From: Acidobacteriota bacterium | GTDB taxonomy: Bacteria; Acidobacteriota; Terriglobia; Terriglobales; Acidobacteriaceae | Direction of reading: 5' to 3' | DNA: 64,000 nucleotides | Assembly (NCBI GenBank): GCA_003225055.1 | Contig: QIAU01000154.1 | Span: 1 to 64,000 of the forward strand | Shown here: positions 20,752 to 32,289 of the stretch, piece after piece | Layout: each line of letters begins with the position of its first letter | Position numbering within the stretch: position 1 is the stretch's first letter | The notes under the pieces: generated by a model | Seen by the model: only the letters and a program-made list of their open reading frames with translations | What the model was told of the DNA's origin: nothing | Databases searched by the model: none | Translations under genes and position numbers: made by a program

Positions 20752-21693
20752 TCAAGGGCCAGGCCCGCTATCGCAGGCGTTTCGGTCCTTAGGCGCAGTC
20801 CACGCCTTAAAACGCCTTAAAATCTCCAATGCCGAGGCGTGGTCGCGGATGGTCTTGAAACCGCAAGCCGAACAATGGTGCTTCCTGTCCCACAACTGCT
20901 TGGGCACAGCTCGACCACACGGGCATTGTTGCGATGTGCCACGGGCATTCACTTTCACCAGCCATCGACCAGCGCTTTCAGCCTTGTACGATAGCTTTCG
21001 GATGAAGCCTGACCACGCGGCATCGTGTATGGACTTGGCAAGCCTACCCCCCGCCAAGCCTTGGATGTTCAAATCCTCCACGGCGATGATGCCGTAGTTA
21101 TTCACCAGTTCACGAGACAGCTTGTGTTGGAAATCGTTGCGTTGGTGGAACACATGGCGATCGAGTTTGGCAACTCGGCGGCAGGCACGTTTCCAGCCGC
21201 TCGACCGCTTCGTGCATCGGGAAACGTGGCGCTGCTTGCGCCGAAGTTCTTTCTCGGCGGCGCGGAACCATCGCGGATTGTCTACGATTTCGGCATCACT
21301 GGTTACCGCGAAGGATTCCAAGCCAACGTCGATGCCAATGGCATCGTGGTTCTCCGGCAAAGGTTCGCTATCCAGGATCGAGGAAAAGCAGGCGTACCAC
21401 TTGGTGCGAAATTCCTGCCGCAAGGTGTACGAGGAAACCCCCTTGAGGTGCTTAACCAACCGATGGATACCCAACTGCGGGTCTACTTCTACCAGCACGT
21501 GTACGTGGTCGGGCATGATTTCCAAAGCCATGATTTCGGCACGATATTTGTTTGTCACTTGTCTAAGCACCTGTTCGCATCGTTTAGCGCTGGGTCCGAC
21601 CAGCACAGCTCGCCGATACTTAGGTGTCCCCACACAATGGTACTTGCTTGAATAGACCACGTTGTGGTTTGATTTGTAGCCTTCCAGGGCCAT
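20752..21693 (-). pseudogene. Chimeric TnpA-TnpB open reading frame (IS605 deletion product)
   Basis: The frame is intact from ATG 21693 (313 residues). Residues 1 to about 98 are TnpA (Y1 HUH transposase): VVYSSKYHCVGTPKYRRAVL, then MPDHVHVLVEVD with the His-x-His metal pair. The catalytic tyrosine helix that should follow is absent. At about 21400-21408 the sequence passes in frame into TnpB at KWYACFSS, with all three RuvC acidic residues visible: GIDVGLESF, IAVEDLNIQGLA and RDHASALEIL. The zinc finger remains as CPCG-HCSACG. The TnpB N-terminal recognition/wedge part is missing. The result is an HUH domain joined to a complete RuvC-Zn nuclease half. Probably inactive as a transposase or guide-directed nuclease, but the frame is undamaged. 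Confidence 0.8.
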
Positions 21694-21750
21694 ACTGATG
21701 CTTATACCCAAGGAAGCAATCTGATACAAGGCAAAATCACGCCTTATATC

Positions 21751-21770
21751 CCCAGCCCTAAAGGGCCGGG
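21751..21770 (-). repeat. Left-end hairpin of the IS605 relic
   Basis: CCCaGCCC pairs with GGGCcGGG around TAAA on the + strand. Its position about 60 bases upstream of the tnpA start fits the left-end hairpin bound by TnpA. Confidence 0.5.
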
Positions 21771-21850
21771 CTTTACGGCGCTTCTCGGTAATTCCCAAGT
21801 TCGAATAGCATGTTGCGGCACGTACTTCCGGCAGGGGGGCAAGTGGCCTC

Positions 21851-24800
21851 ATGAAGCGGCCGATCGCATTTTTTTTCTTCGTTGTTCTGCTACACGCAAT
21901 TTCCGGCTTCGCCCAACCGACCTCTGAAAATGCCCGCCCACCCGATCCCTACAAAGCTACGCTGGATCGCTTGGACTCCTTGACGACATTACCGTTGCCG
22001 GAGTGGCGCTTCCACACCGATGTTCCTCATCCCGAAAGTCCTTTGCTCGACGATTCCAGCTGGGAAGTCATGAAGGTTGGAGACAACTGGACGTCGGGTC
22101 CGCGCGTGCTGCGCCGCTGGATCGAAATCCCCGAAAAGATCAACCGCTACGCGATTCAAGGCGCGCGCGTGAAACTCGATTTGAATATCTCCAGCCATGA
22201 TGCCGAGACGCTGACGGTCTTCTCCAATGGCTCAGTGGCCGAACGAACGGATGAGGACATGCAGCAACCCATCCTTCTGGCCGAGAACGCCCAGCCGGGC
22301 CAGAAATTTCTGGTGGCGATCCGTATTGATGTGAACCGCGTGGAGAGCACATTAAGCAAGGCACAGTTGCTGATCGAGCCGCCCCCCAGCCGTCCCGATC
22401 CCAGGCGGTTGCGTGAAGAAATCCTTTCCGCGCGGCCGATCCTGGACGCTTACCAGGAGAATGAAAGGCAACGTGATCAGCAACTCAACCAGGCGGTCGA
22501 AGCCATGAATTTTGCGGCGCTCGATCAGGGTGATCAGCTTGCCTTCGACGCTTCCCTGCGGCAGGCGCAAACCAAACTGGAGGCGCTCGGTCCCTGGCTG
22601 AGGCAGTTCACCATTCACGCCGTGGGGAACTCGCATATTGATATGGCCTGGCTATGGCCGTGGACCGAGACGGTGGAAGTTGTGCGCAATACCTTCCGCA
22701 GCGCACTCGACCTGATGCGTGAATATCCCGATTTCAAGTTCACCATGTCTTCCGCGCGGACCTATGAGTGGATGGAAGAGAAATACCCCGATCTGTTCAA
22801 AGAAATTCAAGATAGGGTCAAAGAGGGACGCTGGGAGGTGATTGGCGGCATGTGGGTCGAGCCGGATCTGAACATGCCGGATGGCGAGTCGCTGAGCCGC
22901 CAGATTCTTGTGGGCAAACGTTATTTCCGGAAGAAGTTCGGCGTGGACGTCAAGATCGGCTGGAATCCGGATTCGTTCGGCTACAACTGGCAATTGCCGC
23001 AGATTTACAAGAAGTCAGGAATGGATTATTTCGTTACCCAGAAGCTGCTTTGGGCGCACGAGTTCACCACGTTTCCCTACAAGCTGTTCTGGTGGGAAGC
23101 GCCTGATGGCAGCCGCCTGCTCACTTATTTCCCGCACGACTATGCGGGCGGAATCGAAGCCGAAAGCATGGCGAGGGATTTATCGGTTTGGGCTCCCGCC
23201 ATCTACGGCCCGCAACTAAGCGACCGACTGGAGATGATGCACCTCTACGGTGTGGGCGACCATGGCGGCGGGCCCACGCGCACCATGCTGGATAACGCCG
23301 TGCGGCTGATGTCCCCGGACGTGGTTTATCCGAAGCTTGAGTTAGGTACGGCCAAAGGATTTTTCGACGACCTTGAGAAAAAACTTCCCCGCCTGAAAGT
23401 GCCGACTTGGAAAGACGAACTTTACTTCCAATACCACCGGGGCGTGATGACGACGCAGGCGGAAACCAAGCGGCGCATCCGGCGCAGCGAAGAAACCATG
23501 CTCAACGCCGAGAAATTCTCCTCCATCGCGCTGCTCTACGGCCACCCCTATCCGCAGGAAGAAATGGAACGCGCCTGGAAGCGGCTGCTGTTTGATCACT
23601 TCCACGACATCATGCCGGGTTCGGGTATCGCCGTGAACTATCTCGACGCCAAGCGGAACCTGGAGGATGTCGAGCGCGCGGGACGCGAGATCATGCAAGG
23701 AGCTTTCCATGAAATTCTGGCCCACATCAACACGCTGGGCGACGGAGTCCCGATCGTGGTCTTTAATTCTCTCTCCTGGCCGCGCACGGAAATCATCGAG
23801 ACCGAGGCGCAACTTCCCAACCCGGTGCGCGAAATTGAAGTCGTGGATGCGACGGGCAAGCTGGCCGAATCGGAAACCCTGAAGGTTGATTCCAAAACTC
23901 ACCGGGTGCGCTTTCTGCTGCTGGCCACCGTGCCCGAACTGGGCTACAAGACTTATTTCGTGCGGCCCGCCAAAACCCTCTTTCCCAAACACGCGGCGGT
24001 TAAAGCCACTGTGGATTCTCTGGAGAATGACTTCATTCGGCTCAAGCTGGATCCGCGAACGGGATGCGTAACCAGCCTGTTCGATAAGCGCAGCCAGACC
24101 GAGGCGCTAGCCCCAGCCGAAACCGATACGGGTGGCCCAAAGAATTTGGTTTGCGGGAATTTGCTCCAGACCTTCGTGGACAAGCCCAAGCGCTGGGACG
24201 CGTGGAACATCGACGCCGATTTCGAGCAGCAGCATTGGGATCTGGATAAGGCTGACGATGTAAGGCTCGTCGAGAGCGGGCCGCTACGGGCGGTGATTCG
24301 GGTGAAGAAACACTTTCAGAACTCGGCCTTCGTCGAGGACATCACACTCTCGAGCGGCGTGCCGCGCGTGGACGTCAAGATCGAAGCCGACTGGCGGGAA
24401 AAACACATTCTGTTGAAGGTGGCGTTTCCGCTGAGCGCGCACAACGACAAAGCGACATTCGAGATTCCCTACGGATCGATCGAGCGTCCGACCACGCGCC
24501 GCACACCGGCCGAGCAGGCCGAGTTCGAGGTGCCGGCGCTGCGCTGGGCAGACCTTTCCGATGCCAAGCACGGATTCAGCCTGCTGAACGACAGCAAATA
24601 TGGATACGACGCGAAAGGTAACGTGCTCCGGCTGTCCCTGCTGCGCTCGCCAGTCTGGCCCGATCCTCACGCCGACGAAGGCCATCACGAATCGATTTAT
24701 TCTTTGTATCCGCACGGAGGGAGCTGGCGTGAGGCCGAGACGGTTCGTAGAGGATACGAGTTGAATTACAGGCCGTTCACCATCGAGACCGACAAGCACC

Positions 24801-25286: not shown

Positions 25287-25979
25287 TTAGATGGTGGCCG
25301 AGGGGCTTGTACCCGTGGCGGCGAACACTTCCTCTACCTCCTCTTTGGCAATTCCAATGAAAGATTGGACGACCGCCGGATCGAATTGTGTCCCGCTGCT
25401 CGCCAGCAGACGCCGCACCGCTTCTTCGTGCGGCAGGCCCCTGCGGTAACAGCGGTTGGAGATCATCGCATCGTAGGCATCGATGACGGACACGATACGG
25501 GAACCGATGGGAATTTCGTTGCCCTTCAGCCCGCCTGGGTAGCCGGTTCCATCATAGTTCTCATGATGGTGCAGGGCGTACAGGCTCGCCTTCTCTAAAC
25601 CGGCAAACAGGCGCAGGATGGACCAGCTGTATTCAGGATGCTTGTTCATCTTGGCGCGCTCTTCGTCGGTGAGCTTGCCGTCTTTTCTCAAGATGGAATC
25701 AGGCACACCGATTTTTCCAATGTCGTGCAAGAGAGCGGCAACCTCGAGCGGATAGAAGTCGGCTTCCGCCAGCCCCATCTGGCGACCCACCCGGACCACC
25801 CACTCCGCCAGGCGCGTGCTGTGGACGCCGGTGTTGAGATCGCGCAAGTCGAGCAGCTGGTTGAAGGCGCAGATTACCGACCTGAGGAGCGTGTGTTGCT
25901 GCTCCTCAAGTTCCTTCACCCGCAAGTTGGTAGCGACGGCGGGGGCACGCGCTAGGTATTCGTCCGCAAAGCTTGCCAC
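25287..25979 (-). CDS. HD-GYP domain cyclic-di-GMP phosphodiesterase-like protein
   Basis: The start is set at GTG 25979 (230 residues) because GGAGG lies seven bases upstream and the frame further upstream is only the antiparallel reading of the protease gene. Residues 15-50 form a short helical lead (KELEEQQHTLLRSVICAF). The HD-GYP domain follows: HSTRLAEWV, LLHDIGKIGVPD (HD), KHPEYSW, YALHHHENYDGTGYPGG (GYP motif) and SVIDAYDAMISNR. All metal-binding residues appear present. It probably degrades c-di-GMP or senses it. There is no receiver domain, so input would come from a partner. It begins 17 bases after the S8 protease stop and is the last gene of the sigma/CHAT block, suggesting co-transcription. 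Confidence 0.85.
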   Translation of the reverse strand: MASFADEYLARAPAVATNLRVKELEEQQHTLLRSVICAFNQLLDLRDLNTGVHSTRLAEWVVRVGRQMGLAEADFYPLEVAALLHDIGKIGVPDSILRKDGKLTDEERAKMNKHPEYSWSILRLFAGLEKASLYALHHHENYDGTGYPGGLKGNEIPIGSRIVSVIDAYDAMISNRCYRRGLPHEEAVRRLLASSGTQFDPAVVQSFIGIAKEEVEEVFAATGTSPSATI

Positions 25980-25995
25980 AGGGCACCTCCGCCGT

Positions 25996-27417
25996 CTAGT
26001 CGAATCCCAGATAAGTGCGGAAGGCCCGTACCGCCTGATAGGTATCGAGGCGGCCATATCCCAACTGGGGCGCGGAGATGTATTGGGCATGGGACAGGGC
26101 ATTTGCCGCTTGCGGCTCGCCGGCCGCAGCGCTGGCACCGGTCGATGGGGAGATTGTTACCAGGCCCAGCAAGGATACGGATGTGCTGGCCTGAGCGTGA
26201 TAAACCGAGGCTATCACCGCGGTGGTTCCGCTTACGAAAGGAGCGCTGAACGACGTTCCCCATCCCGCGGCGTAGGTTCCGAACGGGTAGGTGGTCATGA
26301 TGGCCTCACCCGGCGCCGCCAGCCAAACCGGAGGAGCTCCGTAGTTGGAGAAGGTCGAAGGCTGGTCATTGAGGCTGGTGGAGGCGACGTCCACGACTCC
26401 CTTCAGAGCCGCGGGATAAACGGTCGCTTGCTGCCCGCTGTTCCCCGCTGCCGCGATAGAAATCGCTCCATTGGCCGTGGCATAGTTCACGGCGTTGGCA
26501 AGTTCCTGTGAGTAGGTGGTGTAGTTAAAGCTCATGTTGATCACCTTGGCGCCGTGACTGACCGCATAGTAAATGGCGCGCAAGATGTCCGAGTTGTAGC
26601 CCGAGCCGTCGGCGTGGAAAGCTTTCAGCGGCATGATCTTGGCTTGCGGGGCGACCAAGTGAACGATGCCCGAAACCATGGTGCCGTGTCCGAAGGCTTG
26701 GTAGTGGTGTCCATCGAGGACGGCGGCCGTGGATTGATCCAGAACCGCAGCCGTCGATTGGCTGACCTCGGCAACCTGCATGTTGTTGCTGTCGAGGACG
26801 GCAGCCGTCGACTGGCTGACATCCGCCATTTCCGAACCGCCACTCTGGTTGCGAGTGAAGTCGTAGCCGGTAACAACCGAACTCTTCAGGGCCGGATGAT
26901 TGGGATCAACGCCCGTATCTATCACCGCGACCGTGACGCCCGAGCCCGCCACGCCGAAAATGGAATGCATGGAATCGGTCTGGATCAGCTGGTTCGCAGG
27001 CTGATATACATAGCCGCGCCAAACTGTCGCGCCGTAGTAGGTGATGGGCGTTCGGTCGTTCAGATACGGCGGAATCGAAGTGACGGTGGCGCCCTGGGTG
27101 GCGACCAACTGGTCCGGCTCGACCGTGACCAACCCCAAGGGCTTCAAAACTAACAGCAGCACGGAATCGACTACAGAGGCGGTTTGGAGCAAGAAGAGCT
27201 GGCCGCCGGGATCACCAATCGCCGCGACCGACGAGCAGCCCAACAGCTTGCAGACGTTCAGAATTCCGGTGAGTCCCAGGCTATTGCGCATCACCAGCCG
27301 GTTCTGAGTTTGCGCCGCGGAAAACTGGCTGCTAATCAGCACCAGTAACAATAAACAGGCCTGAACTGCGCGGGGGAAAGGACGAATCGTTGACCGAGCT
27401 TGAACGCGAGTTCCCAT
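25996..27417 (-). CDS. Secreted subtilisin-like serine protease (S8)
   Basis: The product has 473 residues. A basic n-region and hydrophobic core (ACLLLLVLISSQFSAAQ) form the signal peptide. An I9-like prodomain region spans about 40-155. The catalytic triad is D167 (VAVIDTGVDP), H244 (FGHGTMVSGI) and S389 (GTSFSAP), with oxyanion N326 (AAGNSGQ). Three copies of QSTAAVLD lie between Asp and His (residues 202-235), inserted just before the catalytic His; this repeat is not part of the S8 fold. The gene lies 141 bases downstream of the Cys/His protein and 17 bases upstream of the HD-GYP gene. Export suggests it cleaves envelope or external substrates. Confidence 0.9.
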   Translation of the reverse strand: MGTRVQARSTIRPFPRAVQACLLLLVLISSQFSAAQTQNRLVMRNSLGLTGILNVCKLLGCSSVAAIGDPGGQLFLLQTASVVDSVLLLVLKPLGLVTVEPDQLVATQGATVTSIPPYLNDRTPITYYGATVWRGYVYQPANQLIQTDSMHSIFGVAGSGVTVAVIDTGVDPNHPALKSSVVTGYDFTRNQSGGSEMADVSQSTAAVLDSNNMQVAEVSQSTAAVLDQSTAAVLDGHHYQAFGHGTMVSGIVHLVAPQAKIMPLKAFHADGSGYNSDILRAIYYAVSHGAKVINMSFNYTTYSQELANAVNYATANGAISIAAAGNSGQQATVYPAALKGVVDVASTSLNDQPSTFSNYGAPPVWLAAPGEAIMTTYPFGTYAAGWGTSFSAPFVSGTTAVIASVYHAQASTSVSLLGLVTISPSTGASAAAGEPQAANALSHAQYISAPQLGYGRLDTYQAVRAFRTYLGFD

Positions 27418-27558
27418 CGAAGTGACCCTCTTCTACTCAGCTGAACCGCTGTCCATCGTTGCGGGCTCAGTCTAAAGCAAAACCGATGCTTGCTAAACTT
27501 ACGGGTGTAACTACTTGCTGCTGCCCATCGGTAACCGCTTAAGGTTACTTTCTGGCGA

Positions 27559-28221
27559 TCAGTCGAAATTTTTGCGGCCGACCGGCTTGCTGTCCACGCC
27601 GTAGAGGGGGAGAACAATCACTTTTTCTTCATCCATGCCGATAACCACACTCAAATCATTGCTGGCTTCAAATTCCAATTGAAACTCACCAAAATCATTG
27701 GTCGCGGTATTGGCGACGGGCAACACTCCCTTGAGCAGGCGTACCAGGATACCTTGCGCAGCACAGTTGGTCGTCAGGACCCCTTGTCCGTTATGGACCG
27801 CCCGGGTGCGATTCAAGACTTGCCCGACCAGCGAGATGCGGTCCAACTCGCGCTGTGGTTCCAGCCGAAGGTCGATGACGTAGTCATCGGCTTCGTACAG
27901 GAGCTGGCGGGCGGCAACCGCGCCTCGCAGACCGGCTGCGGCGGGTTGAAGACTGCTGTCGAAAACGAGCCGTGCTGTCTTACTGGCTTTGAGATCAAGA
28001 GCAATTCGGGCAAACTGGCTCTTGGCCACGCGAACCGTGTCCTCCGGCGGGACGTAAGCACTTTCTTCTTTTGCAACCAATCCAACCGCGTGCCAGATCC
28101 GGAAAGTTGCCTCGCACCTCTTGCAGCCGGCATCGATGTGGCGCTGCATCGTTGCCCTAGTGCCCGGTGCCACCAAATTCCTGGCAAAATCCGACCAGGC
28201 CTCTTCGCTGAAGTGTTTCAC
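27559..28221 (-). CDS. Cys/His anti-sigma-like protein of unknown function
   Basis: The product has 220 residues with no signal peptide. The first 60 residues resemble the zinc-binding anti-sigma (zf-HC2) layout: a helix HFSEEAWSDFARNLV, then MQRHIDAGCKRCEATF with one His and two Cys, CxxC-like. The remainder is beta-rich (LVFDSSLQPAAAGLRG, RQLLYEADDYVIDLRL, GEFQLEFEASNDLSVVIG) without a membrane segment, so a classical membrane anti-sigma is unlikely. Acidobacterial regulatory clusters often carry such soluble proteins beside ECF sigma genes. It lies 123 bases after the TPR-CHAT gene. Role inferred only from position and the Cys/His motif. Confidence 0.6.
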   Translation of the reverse strand: MKHFSEEAWSDFARNLVAPGTRATMQRHIDAGCKRCEATFRIWHAVGLVAKEESAYVPPEDTVRVAKSQFARIALDLKASKTARLVFDSSLQPAAAGLRGAVAARQLLYEADDYVIDLRLEPQRELDRISLVGQVLNRTRAVHNGQGVLTTNCAAQGILVRLLKGVLPVANTATNDFGEFQLEFEASNDLSVVIGMDEEKVIVLPLYGVDSKPVGRKNFD

Positions 28222-28344
28222 CTCTACCTCCGCTTGGGGGACCGGAACCTGTTAGACCGGGGTTCGTCCGGGAATGTGTTTCAATTTGCTAAAAAGGAAT
28301 CGGGCCGGGCCAAAAAATATAGGGGCAGGCGAAAATAATACCGA

Positions 28345-31209
28345 TCAAGCCTTACCTACCAGAATGAACGGAGCCCATTGATAAGGATGGGGATAGCGCT
28401 CCCTTAATTCCAGCATGGCGGCCCGGAGAGCAGCCGGCTTCGTGTTCCCTTCGCCTAAGTGGCGGTAAAAGGCACGCATATGTTCGGCCGTGCTCTTGTC
28501 GTGCACGTCCCACAGGCTGAGCACTAGCGATTGCGCTCCGGCGTGCAACAGGCCGCGCGCCAGGCCGATCAACTCGTCACCCGCCGCCACCACATTGACT
28601 CCGGTGGCACAACCGCTTAGGGTAATGAGTTCGACCGGCAGCCGAAGCTGGTAAAGATCGTACAAACTGAGAAATGAGCCGCCCAGCCGGATGGCCGAAA
28701 ACATGGGATTGTCTTTCCGAAAGTAGCCGTGGGTCGCGATGTGGATGATGCGGCTGACCGGACCCTTGCTGCGCAGAGTATCCTCGCTCGCCTCCTGACC
28801 CAGAAAGAGCTCCGCTTGAGGCAGAACCTCGGTTAGGGCACGTACTTCTTCGGCAATGGCGGGGGCCAGCGGGTCGGGAATGCCCAGCACGAGCGAAGCG
28901 CCGCAACGATTCCCTTCCCGCGACTGGCACAGCGCGTAAATGCTGGCGCTCGGCGCGTAGGAGACAGTGAAGTTGTCCACCAGGTACGATTTCCCATCGA
29001 AAAGCGCATGGAAAGGCACGTAGTGCAGCAGTCCATGGGGCACGAAGACGAGATGCCTGCAACTCAACTGTGCCCGGATCGGAGCTATCAGTTCGTTGTA
29101 AAGTTCCGCCAGGTGAGCTTGCGTGGCCTCGACGAGCGAACCCTGAAAGCGGTTGAGGTACTCGGGATCGAGGCGGAACTTCGAGAGCTGGAATTCGAAC
29201 AGACGCAGAAAGTTTGTGACGCGAGATTCCAGGGTTACTGGCGCGATCTCGAGGGTCTCCCGGCCGAGTAGGCAGACCAGAATCCGATCGCGAATGCGGA
29301 AATATTCGACCAGCCGGGTGCCGGCCGGGATGCGGTCGCGAATGGCTGGAATGGGAACGCTGGTGGGTCTTTGCAGGCCGGCTTGCTCGGCGTCCGACTC
29401 GCTGGCCTCGTGCAACATGCGAAGCAAATCATTCTCGCGGGCGCGAGCCTGCCTTTGAAGGTGATGGATGCGAGCGGGAGATGGCGCCACCGGCTGAAGC
29501 TGCTCTCTTTCAATCAGGCTGTAATACCAGTTCAACTCCTCGCGTAAATCGCGGATGGAGCGCACCAGTTCGCTCTGGCCTGTGTCCTCGGCTGAGGCCG
29601 CGCGCGCGGGCCGGACAAACAGGTCCATCAAACTGCGCGACTTGGCCTGCTCGATGTACCCCAGCGCCTCTTCCAGCGATGCTGGCTCGGCACTGCGGCT
29701 AAGACAAATTTCGACGAGGTCCTCATAAACTTCCAGTCGATTCTTGACAAACGCGATTTTCAGTTCTTCCCGGTGAAGGCTGCTGCGCAACGATTCCAGG
29801 GCTTCCCGCGCAGCCTGGTAGGAAGCGTAGGCCTTCTCGCGATCGTTTTCGGCGGAGTGGATGTTCCCCATCAGGAGGTGAGCGGCGTGGGCGAGCACCG
29901 GGATCTCCAGACCGGCGAGCTTCTCGAGCGCCGCTTCACCACGTGCGGCAGCCTCTCCGATGTTTTCCGTACGCAAGGCAATGCGGGCCAGCAGGAGCTC
30001 GGCCAGCACGGCCTTATTCTGAAGGTTCAGTTTCTGGAGAGCGGCGAGCGCTTCGGAGCACAGCCGGCGGGCCTCGAAAAAGCGGCCTTCGTTGAAGAAA
30101 ACCAGAGCCCGGTACAAATCAATCAGCGACGGCCAGGCGCGGTTCTTTTCTTTGACGAACAGCTCTCGTGCCCGGGAAAACAGCTCGAGGGCTTGGAAAG
30201 CGTGCCCTTGCTGGCTGGCCGCCATCGCCGAGAACGCGAGGCTCTTGGCCTCTTCATAGCCATTGCCCAGCTTGTGAAAACCGTCGTGCGCCTGCTGGGC
30301 AAGCTCGGCCGCCTCCGCCGCCAGATTCAAATCCAAGTAGAGTTCGGCAAGGTCAAGATTGCAGAGCGCGAGATGGTAGAAATCGCCGACCTTCTTGAAA
30401 GCTATGCGCCGCGCCCGGTACATCTCGATGGCGCGGCTGTACTCTCCGCGAAGAAAATAAAGATATGCGATGTTGTAATCGGCCTGCGTCTTGAGCAGCG
30501 GCATGCCATGCTCTTGGGAAAAATTGCGCGCCTTCTCGTGCGATTCGAGAGCCTGGGAGAAATCGTTCAGGCTGATGTAGCAGGTGGCCAGGTTGGTAAG
30601 GACCACCGCGACACCTTCCGGGTCCTCGTTCGCGGGCAGGCCGTGGTAAGCGCGTTTGTAACAGGCGATGGCTTCGGCGAACCGGTCCTGGCGGTAGTAG
30701 ATATTTCCCAGATTGATGTCGAGGCGAGCCAGTCTCCAGGTATTACCCTCCTCGGCAAAAATCTTCCGGGCTCGTTCCGCGGCGGCAAAGGCGCGGTTGT
30801 ATTCACCCATGAGCAGCAGAGGCTGAATCGATCCGCTCAGCGTTCGGGCTACTTCACTGGTGTCACCGAGAGCATCGAAAAGGGCAACTGCTTGCTGATG
30901 GAGATCGACCGCCTGGGCATTCTCGCCCCGTGCGTACAGCGTATTGGCTTTGGCGCGCAGGGCTTTCGCCAGCGCTCCCTGGTCATCCAGTTGCCTGGCA
31001 ATGGCGAGCGCAGCATCCGCCAACTGAAGGGCCTGGGCGACGTCGACCCGCACCTGCTCTCTTACCCTGTCGGCGATGTCCGAGACAATTTCGGGATGAA
31101 CCAGGGTAGGGTGGCGAACCAGAAATTTTCGGCGGTCGCCCTCATCGGCCAGACGGGTCAGCTGTTTCAGCAGGCGCTCCCGGTTTTTCATGCGCTCGGC
31201 TGCGGTCAT
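28345..31209 (-). CDS. TPR-CHAT caspase-like protein
   Basis: The start is ATG 31209 (954 residues), whose ATG overlaps the TGA of the sigma gene (ATGA), a sign of translational coupling. Residues 1-60 are helical. Residues 60-500 are a long run of tetratricopeptide units (for example LARLDINLGNIYYRQDRFAE, NLATCYISLNDFSQALE, YLYFLRGEYSRAIEMYR). A linker follows to the CHAT domain (about 650-950). The caspase-like dyad is visible: H827 in IIHIATHGYF and C867 in ITLSGCATGV, followed by ELIGLARGLLHAGAQSLV and LWDVHDKST. CHAT proteases are clan CD cysteine peptidases, known in Csx29 and separase-like enzymes, and cut partner proteins on activation. The TPR array is a likely sensor or substrate platform. 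Confidence 0.88.
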   Translation of the reverse strand: MTAAERMKNRERLLKQLTRLADEGDRRKFLVRHPTLVHPEIVSDIADRVREQVRVDVAQALQLADAALAIARQLDDQGALAKALRAKANTLYARGENAQAVDLHQQAVALFDALGDTSEVARTLSGSIQPLLLMGEYNRAFAAAERARKIFAEEGNTWRLARLDINLGNIYYRQDRFAEAIACYKRAYHGLPANEDPEGVAVVLTNLATCYISLNDFSQALESHEKARNFSQEHGMPLLKTQADYNIAYLYFLRGEYSRAIEMYRARRIAFKKVGDFYHLALCNLDLAELYLDLNLAAEAAELAQQAHDGFHKLGNGYEEAKSLAFSAMAASQQGHAFQALELFSRARELFVKEKNRAWPSLIDLYRALVFFNEGRFFEARRLCSEALAALQKLNLQNKAVLAELLLARIALRTENIGEAAARGEAALEKLAGLEIPVLAHAAHLLMGNIHSAENDREKAYASYQAAREALESLRSSLHREELKIAFVKNRLEVYEDLVEICLSRSAEPASLEEALGYIEQAKSRSLMDLFVRPARAASAEDTGQSELVRSIRDLREELNWYYSLIEREQLQPVAPSPARIHHLQRQARARENDLLRMLHEASESDAEQAGLQRPTSVPIPAIRDRIPAGTRLVEYFRIRDRILVCLLGRETLEIAPVTLESRVTNFLRLFEFQLSKFRLDPEYLNRFQGSLVEATQAHLAELYNELIAPIRAQLSCRHLVFVPHGLLHYVPFHALFDGKSYLVDNFTVSYAPSASIYALCQSREGNRCGASLVLGIPDPLAPAIAEEVRALTEVLPQAELFLGQEASEDTLRSKGPVSRIIHIATHGYFRKDNPMFSAIRLGGSFLSLYDLYQLRLPVELITLSGCATGVNVVAAGDELIGLARGLLHAGAQSLVLSLWDVHDKSTAEHMRAFYRHLGEGNTKPAALRAAMLELRERYPHPYQWAPFILVGKA

Positions 31210-31787
31210 GGGAAGCCCTTCTTCTCCAAGGCCTGGCGCAACTTGCCGAGGCACCGTCCGCGAATGAAGCCAATCGAACCGGTGGCCAGCCCCAGTTCCT
31301 TCGCCACGGCCTGGTAAGGACGGGGTGGGATCTCGAAGAAGAGCATGGCAATCATGCGACGACATCGCGGAGGCAGCGTGCTTATGGCTTCGCGGAGGCC
31401 CTGTTCCCGCTGCAACTGATAGAGCATCTGCTCGGGGAGATCGGAGCCGCTCGCCTCCTCCGCTTTCAAATCGACCTGGTCATCAAGCGGGGTGAATCGG
31501 TCTTTCTTCGAGCGCAAGCACTTGTGGTAGCTGGCCTGCATGAGCCACTTGGGCAGAGCCTTGGGATCGCGCAACTTTGACAGGTCCGCGAGCAGATCCA
31601 GGGCAACGGCCTGAAAAATGTCGGCGGCATCGTCCCGCGAAAGTCCGAACTTGATAGGAATAGAGAAGATGAGGTTCTTGTACTTATCAAGCAGAGCCGA
31701 CCATGCCGTCTGGTTCCCCTTACAGCATTCGCGAACCAAGCGGTCGTCTGACCATGCCTTTTCCGGCGCGTCCGATCTGGATTTCAC
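31206..31787 (-). CDS. ECF-type sigma-70 factor
   Basis: The start is taken as GTG 31787 (193 residues), since the frame upstream is low-complexity and lacks sigma homology. Region 2 is seen in CKGNQTAWSALLDKYKNLIF and LSRDDAADIFQAVALDLL; WLMQASYHKCLRSKK follows. Region 4 is ISTLPPRCRRMIAMLFFEI and YQAVAKELGLATGSIGFIRG, a helix-turn-helix for the -35 element. No anti-sigma domain is fused. It is the first gene of the block and overlaps the CHAT gene by four bases, so it probably drives expression of its own cluster or of a regulon under CHAT control. Sigma factors paired with TPR-CHAT or protease genes are frequent in Acidobacteriota and Planctomycetota. Confidence 0.85.
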   Translation of the reverse strand: MKSRSDAPEKAWSDDRLVRECCKGNQTAWSALLDKYKNLIFSIPIKFGLSRDDAADIFQAVALDLLADLSKLRDPKALPKWLMQASYHKCLRSKKDRFTPLDDQVDLKAEEASGSDLPEQMLYQLQREQGLREAISTLPPRCRRMIAMLFFEIPPRPYQAVAKELGLATGSIGFIRGRCLGKLRQALEKKGFP

Positions 31788-31977: not shown

Positions 31978-32289
31978 TCAAGCCAACACAGGGCTACTAA
32001 CTGTGCTTGACGCTTGAAGGCTCAGTCCGAGCCTGAGTATTTCTAATGCCGAGGCATGGTCTCGGGTAGTGTCTAATCCACACCCAGAGCACCGGTGGTC
32101 GTAGTAGTTAAGCGATTTGCGGCAGATCTTGTAGGCCTCTTTGCGCTCGTGCAGGGCGTCGTTGTAGAGTATCCGACACACCTCCAGAGTCTGTCCGAGC
32201 AAAGACTTTTGTCTTAAAGTTGGGTAAAGACGATATAGGGAAAGCCCTTTGCGTTGAGCTTCTAGAAAAGTGTTCGCTGGAGCTGCCAT
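31978..32289 (-). pseudogene. tnpB with large internal deletion
   Basis: The 103-residue frame joins the extreme N-terminus of TnpB (LYRLYPTLRQKSLLGQTLE, VCRILYNDALHERKEAY) directly to its C-terminal zinc finger and last RuvC residue (HRCSGCGLDTTRDHASALEIL). About 270-300 residues, including the first two RuvC acidic residues, are missing between Tyr-Asp near residue 67 and His-Arg-Cys. It cannot be a nuclease. The deletion removes the middle but spares both the 5' coding end and the right-end scaffold. Confidence 0.75.

Follow-up and report, generated by a model that had tools for sequence, protein, structure and literature searches.

The locus described here lies in the window, by which we mean the whole analysed stretch of 64,000 nucleotides from an Acidobacteriota bacterium (assembly GCA_003225055.1, contig QIAU01000154.1). 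The host genome comprises 7.4 Mb in 301 contigs and is 98.7% complete. Between positions 25287 and 31787 of the window five genes follow one another head to tail on the minus strand, coding for an extracytoplasmic function (ECF) sigma factor (SIG), a tetratricopeptide repeat (TPR)-CHAT protease, a Cys/His protein (ZAS, for its zinc anti-sigma-like domain), an exported S8 subtilase and an HD-GYP protein (Table 1). A preliminary description of this DNA had given the gene order and coordinates correctly. Its spacings also held for the ATGA through which the SIG and CHAT reading frames overlap and for the gaps of 123 nt (CHAT-ZAS) and 141 nt (ZAS-S8), but the S8-HD-GYP gap is 16 nt, not 17. Three features had been overlooked: an oligopeptide importer upstream of SIG in relatives, octapeptide repeats in the subtilase, and a promoter-like element in the CHAT-ZAS gap.

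The start of SIG was taken as the GTG at 31787; a longer frame extends to 31940. SIG matched the TIGR02937 sigma70-ECF model with 63.1 bits (cut-off 42.9), and the Pfam sigma models stayed below their cut-offs for it. In the same Pfam scan of the window proteins CHAT, TPR_12, Peptidase_S8 and HD_5 passed their cut-offs, and the Cys/His protein had no match. HD-GYP phosphodiesterases carry the motifs HDxGK and HHExxDGxGYP, and the window protein reads HDIGK and HHENYDGTGYP. The S8 triad D167, H244, S389 was invariant in 10 aligned sequences. The H827/C867 dyad, already noticed in the CHAT protein, proved to be invariant in 45 aligned CHAT proteins. The host genome has four CHAT matches. One of these, on contig C231, is paralogous to the window protein at 50% identity and is accompanied by sigma, Cys/His and S8 genes of its own (L034; L-numbers denote loci or regions around module genes, mostly in relatives, and C-numbers contigs of the host genome).

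Table 1. Features of the five-gene locus and its surroundings in the window, with the basis of each assignment.
Feature	Position	Strand	Basis
ECF-type sigma factor (SIG)	31206..31787	-	TIGR02937; homologues aligned
TPR-CHAT protease, 954 aa, catalytic H827 and C867	28345..31209	-	Pfam; invariant dyad; model
TPR superhelix, about residues 55-480 of the CHAT protein, proposed octapeptide receptor	29770..31047	-	Model helices; co-variation
CHAT protease domain	28351..29118	-	PF12770 match
Bipartite promoter-like element ahead of ZAS	28292..28323	-	Window site; conservation in relatives
ZAS: zinc anti-sigma-like domain (H3, H28, C33, C36) and C-terminal beta-sandwich	27559..28221	-	Invariants; RsiW profile match; model
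Exported S8 subtilase, D167/H244/S389	25996..27417	-	PF00082; signal-peptide-like N-terminus by reading
Three QSTAAVLD octapeptides	26713-26736, 26737-26760, 26791-26814	-	Between catalytic Asp and His
HD-GYP protein, candidate c-di-GMP phosphodiesterase	25287..25979	-	HD_5, 1.1e-40
IS605 OrfB fragment	31978..32289	-	PF12323, 9.9e-13

The neighbourhood analysis called for in the preliminary description strongly supports the five-gene block as a conserved regulatory unit rather than a chance cluster. The loci compared were the best 80 of 271 relatives, chosen by CHAT similarity only in a contig search with a CHAT alignment. SIG adjoins CHAT in 75/80 of them, and four of the remaining five begin at a contig edge; this count is corrected for an ORF-start artefact that had hidden SIG in L084, L138, L148 and L156. 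Among loci with room, where the contig leaves space for the neighbour scored, ZAS was present in 68/73, S8 in 57/64 and HD-GYP in 42/62. All five genes were scored in 37/58 loci with room on both sides, and L084 and L148 also carry all five after the correction. As a control, 559 kb of outer flank searched with the same models gave 7 S8, 3 Cys/His, 2 sigma, 2 CHAT and 1 HD-GYP matches, some of which belong to second modules (e.g. L136), so that the set is conserved beyond chance. A strong CHAT homologue was found in 17/61 genomes, the host included, and all five genes stand in the window's order in 6 of the 20 regions around those matches (L029-L033, L037). The members of the pairs L029/L082, L030/L085, L033/L125 and L035/L155 lie on the same contig.

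At greater distance, the ZAS profile matched 43/396 genomes sampled across the phylum. The surroundings of the stronger matches gave 40 deeper regions (L159-L198), in which CHAT was found in 37/40, sigma in 35/40 and S8 in 32/40, on either strand and anywhere in the region. Scattered gene order had been named beforehand as a sign against a unit; order does vary in the deep branches (SIG-ZAS-CHAT-S8, CHAT-S8-SIG-ZAS and others), but the partners mostly stay together, and since they are kept despite the shuffling, we argue for functional coupling. SIG, ZAS and S8 were all unmatched in the regions of two distant CHAT loci (L046, L047).

Gene order indicates that a peptide importer belongs to the module in close relatives, where it would carry peptides into the cell. 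An OppA-like (SBP_bac_5) gene lies directly upstream of SIG on the same strand in 65/69 close-relative loci with room; it sits after HD-GYP instead in L125, and none was seen upstream of SIG in L130, L131 and L136. An ATPase gene and two permease genes precede the OppA-like gene in L079 and two ATPase genes do so in L122, with Pfam matches to ABC_tran, oligo_HPY, BPD_transp_1 (twice) and SBP_bac_5 at these loci. In the window, the IS605 OrfB fragment occupies the place of the relatives' oligopeptide transporter genes. The best OppA match in the host genome, 60% identical, lies on contig C60 near another octapeptide-bearing S8 gene. A motif found upstream of SIG by expectation maximization (EM) was the coding end of the OppA-like gene, not a promoter. 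Elsewhere in the window (20752-21852, minus strand) a single 366-aa frame matches both Y1_Tnp and OrfB_IS605, and is either an unusual IS200/IS605 transposase-TnpB fusion or a frame artefact.

The exported subtilase of the window contains the octapeptide QSTAAVLD three times, between the catalytic Asp and His. At least two octamers of this type occur in 75/107 S8 proteins, with 2-17 copies per protein and 233 copies in all; an S8 tally of 93/109 takes in low-complexity repeats of some deep S8 proteins. Within genes the copies differ at silent sites with a proportion (pS) of 0.72 and at replacement sites (pN) of 0.03, against a pN of 0.225 between genes, and the octapeptide differs from species to species. 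With silent sites saturated and pN this low, the peptide is therefore held identical inside the protein. The regular expression used for the octamer fixes some of its positions; when one copy was left unconstrained in a recheck, 59/82 were identical at 8 of 8. Some S8 proteins have copies before the catalytic Asp as well. In the 7.4 Mb host genome, codons for Q-S/T-S/T-A-A-I/V-L-D were found in S8 genes only, at 6 sites, as QSTAAVLD in the window and QSSAAILD on C231 and C60.

Subtilases that stand side by side at one module share their octapeptide. The commonest octamer was common to both members in 8/8 such same-locus pairs, whose core identity is 52-75%. In a random sample of 1500 different-locus pairs it was shared by 3% at 50-60% identity, 2% at 60-70% and 44% at 70-80%, the last being the bin into which two of the eight same-locus pairs fall. 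The two modules of L136 have different octamers. Copies of the same peptide differ between paralogues by a mean of 3.7 to 6.2 of 24 nt, and simple recent copying is therefore not the reason for the sharing. The C60 and C231 genes have one identical 24-mer in common, and their sharing may be recent. Two further observations concern these proteins. Members of the SIG-ZAS-CHAT-S8 branch (L179, L181, L182, L183, L190) have a different tandem octamer ahead of the catalytic domain, e.g. QQTSQAFI or RQRSLAFI. Long octapeptide subtilase frames of 613 to 1263 aa, with C- or N-terminal extensions, occur in L188, L192, L034, L106, L122, L131 and L132.

In the sequence comparisons, variation in the octapeptide is matched better by the TPR part of the TPR-CHAT protein than by any other module protein. 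We used 53 of the 80 loci, leaving out L136 with its two modules and loci lacking a partner or a matching octamer. Octamer distance correlated with the distances of TPR at r 0.633, the CHAT half at 0.516, OppA at 0.497, ZAS at 0.479, SIG at 0.475 and the S8 core at 0.418. TPR alone stood out in a multiple regression (0/500 permutations). Its margin over the CHAT half, 0.118 (bootstrap 0.077-0.158), exceeded that of all 604 control windows of eight columns each from S8, ZAS, SIG and OppA (largest 0.116). With 31 non-redundant loci TPR gave 0.54 and the others at most 0.39. Asparagine-lined TPR grooves bind peptide backbones in LGN, kinesin light chain and the RRNPP receptors. Residues 165 and 205, a pair selected after looking at the data, are equivalent helix positions of successive TPRs, each next to a near-invariant asparagine (N166, N206). 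Residue 205 was top of 750 columns in one test, and the two rank 3rd and 4th of 689 columns in a co-change test on a tree built without TPR. Octamer Ile6 goes with Lys, His, Arg or Gln at 205 in 18/18 cases, and Val6 with Ser or Thr in 28/37.

The CHAT protein matched TPR_12 with 5e-24. The Pfam scan found no helix-turn-helix (HTH) domain in it, and the CHAT protease would be its effector. The folds nearest to its model (predicted local distance difference test score, pLDDT, 82.7) are those of Csx29 and separase. VIA-align placed Csx29 (8eey_B) first, with Z 34.4 over 496 residues and a root mean square deviation of 9.2, followed by separases at Z about 32; plain TPR chains (LGN) reached up to 28, and Rap chains, at Z 23-26, were among the generic TPR matches. 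Ranked by E-value in Foldseek, separase 9hn0_B came first, with Csx29 8eey_B just behind.

Like anti-sigma factors of the ChrR, RsrA and RsiW type, which share the zinc signature H/C-x~25-H-x3/4-C-x2-C, ZAS has this signature, with a ligand spacing that resembles ChrR's, and four predicted N-terminal helices. It differs from them in its C-terminal Ig/transthyretin-like beta-sandwich, and no transmembrane stretch or membrane anchor was evident on reading of the sequence. H28, C33 and C36 are invariant in 40/40 diverse members, an alignment that excludes L164, L184 and L197 (zinc ligands missing), and the first ligand is His or Cys in most. The 61 closer homologues all have C36, and H28 and C33 are each kept in at least 90% of them. 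The ZAS profile matched RsiW (5wuq, E 0.006) and 3hug_B (E 0.056), which we take to be RslA, weakly and in the zinc region; the top sequence match was 4v4c (E 1.5e-5), to the beta domain, ahead of RsiW. Among the 40 members Pfam recognised zf-HC2 in 7, the window protein not being one, and CarboxypepD_reg in 18. The ZAS model (pLDDT 86.8, predicted template modelling score 0.62) has four helices and then a beta-sandwich. Its best rows against the PDB span residues 81-213 and are Ig-like (best Z 8.9, 4zjg); the lack of an anti-sigma chain among the best 50 rows is not evidence against the assignment. The earlier proposal that the Cys/His protein is anti-sigma-like is thus supported by the zinc signature, the RsiW profile match and zf-HC2 in relatives, and ZAS is predicted to bind and inhibit SIG.

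The CHAT-ZAS gap carries the bipartite element CCTATATTTTTT-n13/15-CCCTTAT, which at the window site has 13-14 nt between CCTATATTTTTT and CCTTTT. Scored with a weight matrix, for which 31 of them had served as training set, 61/80 stretches reached at least 8, against 0/80 when shuffled. Searching both strands of 140 loci (2.2 Mb, the window not among them) with a regular expression gave 47 matches against 4 for the reversed pattern; three sites are counted twice because of duplicate contigs. Of the 47, 41 are in the gap between CHAT and ZAS, directly behind CHAT or in front of ZAS, and these include the sites in L086, L138 and L139, where ZAS stands apart from CHAT; five precede another gene and one follows an S8 gene. 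In 15 whole genomes, with at most 2 mismatches allowed, 24 sites were found against 2 in the control. Three sites occur in the host genome: besides that of the window, one on C273 precedes a decayed ZAS-like stretch and one on C68 a frame of 58 residues.

We considered whether the element might belong to the end of CHAT, as its terminator or another 3' element, and rejected this, because it travels with ZAS in L086 and, in L138 and L139, where additional sequence comes between CHAT and ZAS, keeps 83-100 nt ahead of ZAS. A scan for sigma-70 and terminator consensus sequences gave no more matches than shuffles. SIG may read the element ahead of ZAS, and the element suggests at least two transcription units. 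Promoters between the genes had been named as a point against a single block; a promoter-like element does stand in the CHAT-ZAS gap, but the conserved co-occurrence outweighs it. Several side observations concern these non-coding stretches. The decayed ZAS-like stretch with its element at C273:953 (L234) is a relic of a further module. At L106:854, L108:982, L114:838, L122:952 and L126:867 a second element stands in front of the gene for a conserved exported protein of some 146 aa, and both come before the oligopeptide transporter genes; in L122 this protein was unmatched in Pfam. The ZAS-S8 gap contains palindromes, GTAC-n4-GTAC by EM on 63 sequences of S8 upstream regions (L079-L158) and GTAACC-n6-GGTTAC as read in the window (27418-27558), which are possibly the operator of another regulator.

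Building on the observed co-occurrence, domain identities, conserved element, octapeptide constraint and co-variation, we regard a peptide-sensing protease/anti-sigma/sigma circuit as the best reading, one whose mechanism we infer and for which we see about an even chance. Proteolysis would release the octapeptide, QSTAAVLD here, from the exported subtilase outside the cytoplasm. A dedicated oligopeptide ATP-binding cassette (ABC) importer, seen in the synteny of relatives, would bring it in; in the window lineage this importer would be unlinked, with its OppA on C60. The octapeptide would then bind the groove of the TPR superhelix, as the co-variation suggests, and binding would activate the CHAT protease to cut ZAS. 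The freed ECF sigma factor would transcribe ZAS, S8 and HD-GYP from the element ahead of ZAS. More S8 precursor would act as positive feedback and more ZAS as a brake, and HD-GYP would lower c-di-GMP. An action of the TPR-CHAT protease on the anti-sigma-like protein had been suggested before; such cleavage would be the most economical link and is paralleled by Csx29, Csx30 and the CASP sigma factor. The stronger proposal is a new class of peptide signalling, in which an octapeptide pheromone held in a subtilase is re-imported and activates TPR-CHAT, ZAS is destroyed and the ECF sigma factor fires, pherotype specificity residing in the octapeptide-TPR match. This we put forward tentatively, at a little under an even chance.

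Several results weigh against this circuit. Shared ancestry can mimic co-variation. In 26 independent sister pairs the partial correlation was 0.31 (p 0.07) for the whole TPR and 0.27 (p 0.09) for OppA, and the N-terminal TPR sub-region 60-220, which gave 0.53 (p 0.0045), was chosen post hoc. For one control window from the S8 core the correlation with TPR was 0.630, near the octapeptide's 0.633, with a smaller margin over the CHAT half, and columns 53 and 240, rather than the groove pair 165/205, rank highest for co-change. An OppA match was found in only 12/40 deeper regions, and tblastn found none in the 64-kb window, which lacks a linked importer. Several deep S8 proteins have no repeated octamer (e.g. 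L166, L168, L170, L175, L177, L193, L194). Zinc ligands are lost in the ZAS homologues L132, L135, L164, L184 and L197, and the PDB rows for the ZAS model reach the beta-sandwich only. Of the 24 genome-wide element sites, 4 precede no recognised module gene, and the element core occurs in 0/72 stretches upstream of SIG. A purely structural role of the repeats, which is unlikely, would also count here.

The genes might instead form a nutritional regulon, with the subtilase breaking down protein from the surroundings, the importer taking up peptides and TPR-CHAT sensing the general peptide supply; the octapeptides would then be incidental. An exported protease, a peptide importer and a regulator are a sensible set for scavenging, and HD-GYP could tie nutrition to motility. 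However, this leaves unexplained the identity of the octapeptides at silent-site saturation, their sharing between paralogues and their tracking of TPR, and we consider it improbable. The octapeptides could also be structural, or serve the subtilase itself as sites of processing or inhibition (as a stacked beta ladder or loops near the active site), in an otherwise ordinary protease-controlled sigma operon. Identical residues favour stacking, and the repeats lie just before the catalytic His. Yet octapeptide distance correlates least with the subtilase's own catalytic core (0.418) and most with TPR (0.633), and copies are also found ahead of the catalytic Asp in some S8 proteins. This account, too, has only a small chance of being right.

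The module resembles ECF54 in gene context, the two being likened by their described neighbours only. For ECF54, a review reports a proposal of proteolytic control without an anti-sigma factor, made from conserved carboxypeptidase, subtilase and CHAT neighbours (PMC8999054). Here, too, the sigma gene has CHAT and subtilase neighbours, and ZAS, with its CarboxypepD_reg-like tail (18/40 members), may correspond to the carboxypeptidase of ECF54. The review's treatment of ECF54 names no importer, octapeptides, HD-GYP gene or promoter element (PMC8999054). That proteases keep SIG inactive by direct degradation, as in that proposal, is very improbable for the present module, since the carboxypeptidase-regulatory-like neighbour has a zinc anti-sigma-like domain and the subtilase has an export signal on sequence reading. 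The preliminary description knew of no system with this set of genes. As the sigma, CHAT, subtilase and carboxypeptidase context is in print for ECF54, the context is partly known; in searches of the open-licence PMC literature the full set with importer or octapeptides was not found, and neither was a description of the anti-sigma domain, importer, octapeptides, element or co-variation for this set.

In type III-E CRISPR, Csx29 cuts Csx30, an inhibitor of an ECF sigma factor (PMC10028731). Like that system, the locus has an ECF sigma factor, a candidate sigma inhibitor and a TPR-CHAT protease that shares the fold of Csx29. However, Cas7-11 or any other RAMP protein (PF03787) was unmatched in the 98.7% complete host genome, and the locus is therefore not type III-E CRISPR. 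Moreover, the inhibitor here would be ZAS with its beta-sandwich, and the input a peptide rather than a target RNA. PADLOC gave generic HD, subtilase and TPR models only for the window, and the infection signal invoked in the preliminary description was not borne out, as nothing points to defence. A CASP-like defence, in which an intruder signal activates CHAT to cut the anti-sigma protein, has the nearest fold and the same logic on its side (PMC10028731), but was dropped as highly unlikely, with no RAMP protein found and an importer and exported protease in place of a nucleic-acid sensor.

Among known peptide-signalling systems, the RRNPPA systems of Bacillota use a short exported peptide processed from a small propeptide, with an HTH or phosphatase effector. 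They combine TPR receptors and imported peptides with sometimes multi-copy propeptides (PMC9765709, PMC11343458), which hold up to 6 identical pheromone copies (PMC9765709). The present module is similar in its TPR domain and oligopeptide importer (linked in close relatives, with an unlinked OppA in the host). It differs in that the peptide copies lie inside a subtilase, that the output would be a protease acting on an anti-sigma factor rather than an HTH or phosphatase effector, and that the phylum is Acidobacteriota.

If the proposed circuit is true, the Acidobacteriota, which are abundant in soil, would gain a peptide language with a readable code, in which the octapeptide variants name the pherotypes. 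ECF54-like sigma factors would gain an anti-sigma factor and an input signal. The module would also show that a Csx29-like protease is used in nature outside CRISPR, hinting at the origin of the CASP logic.

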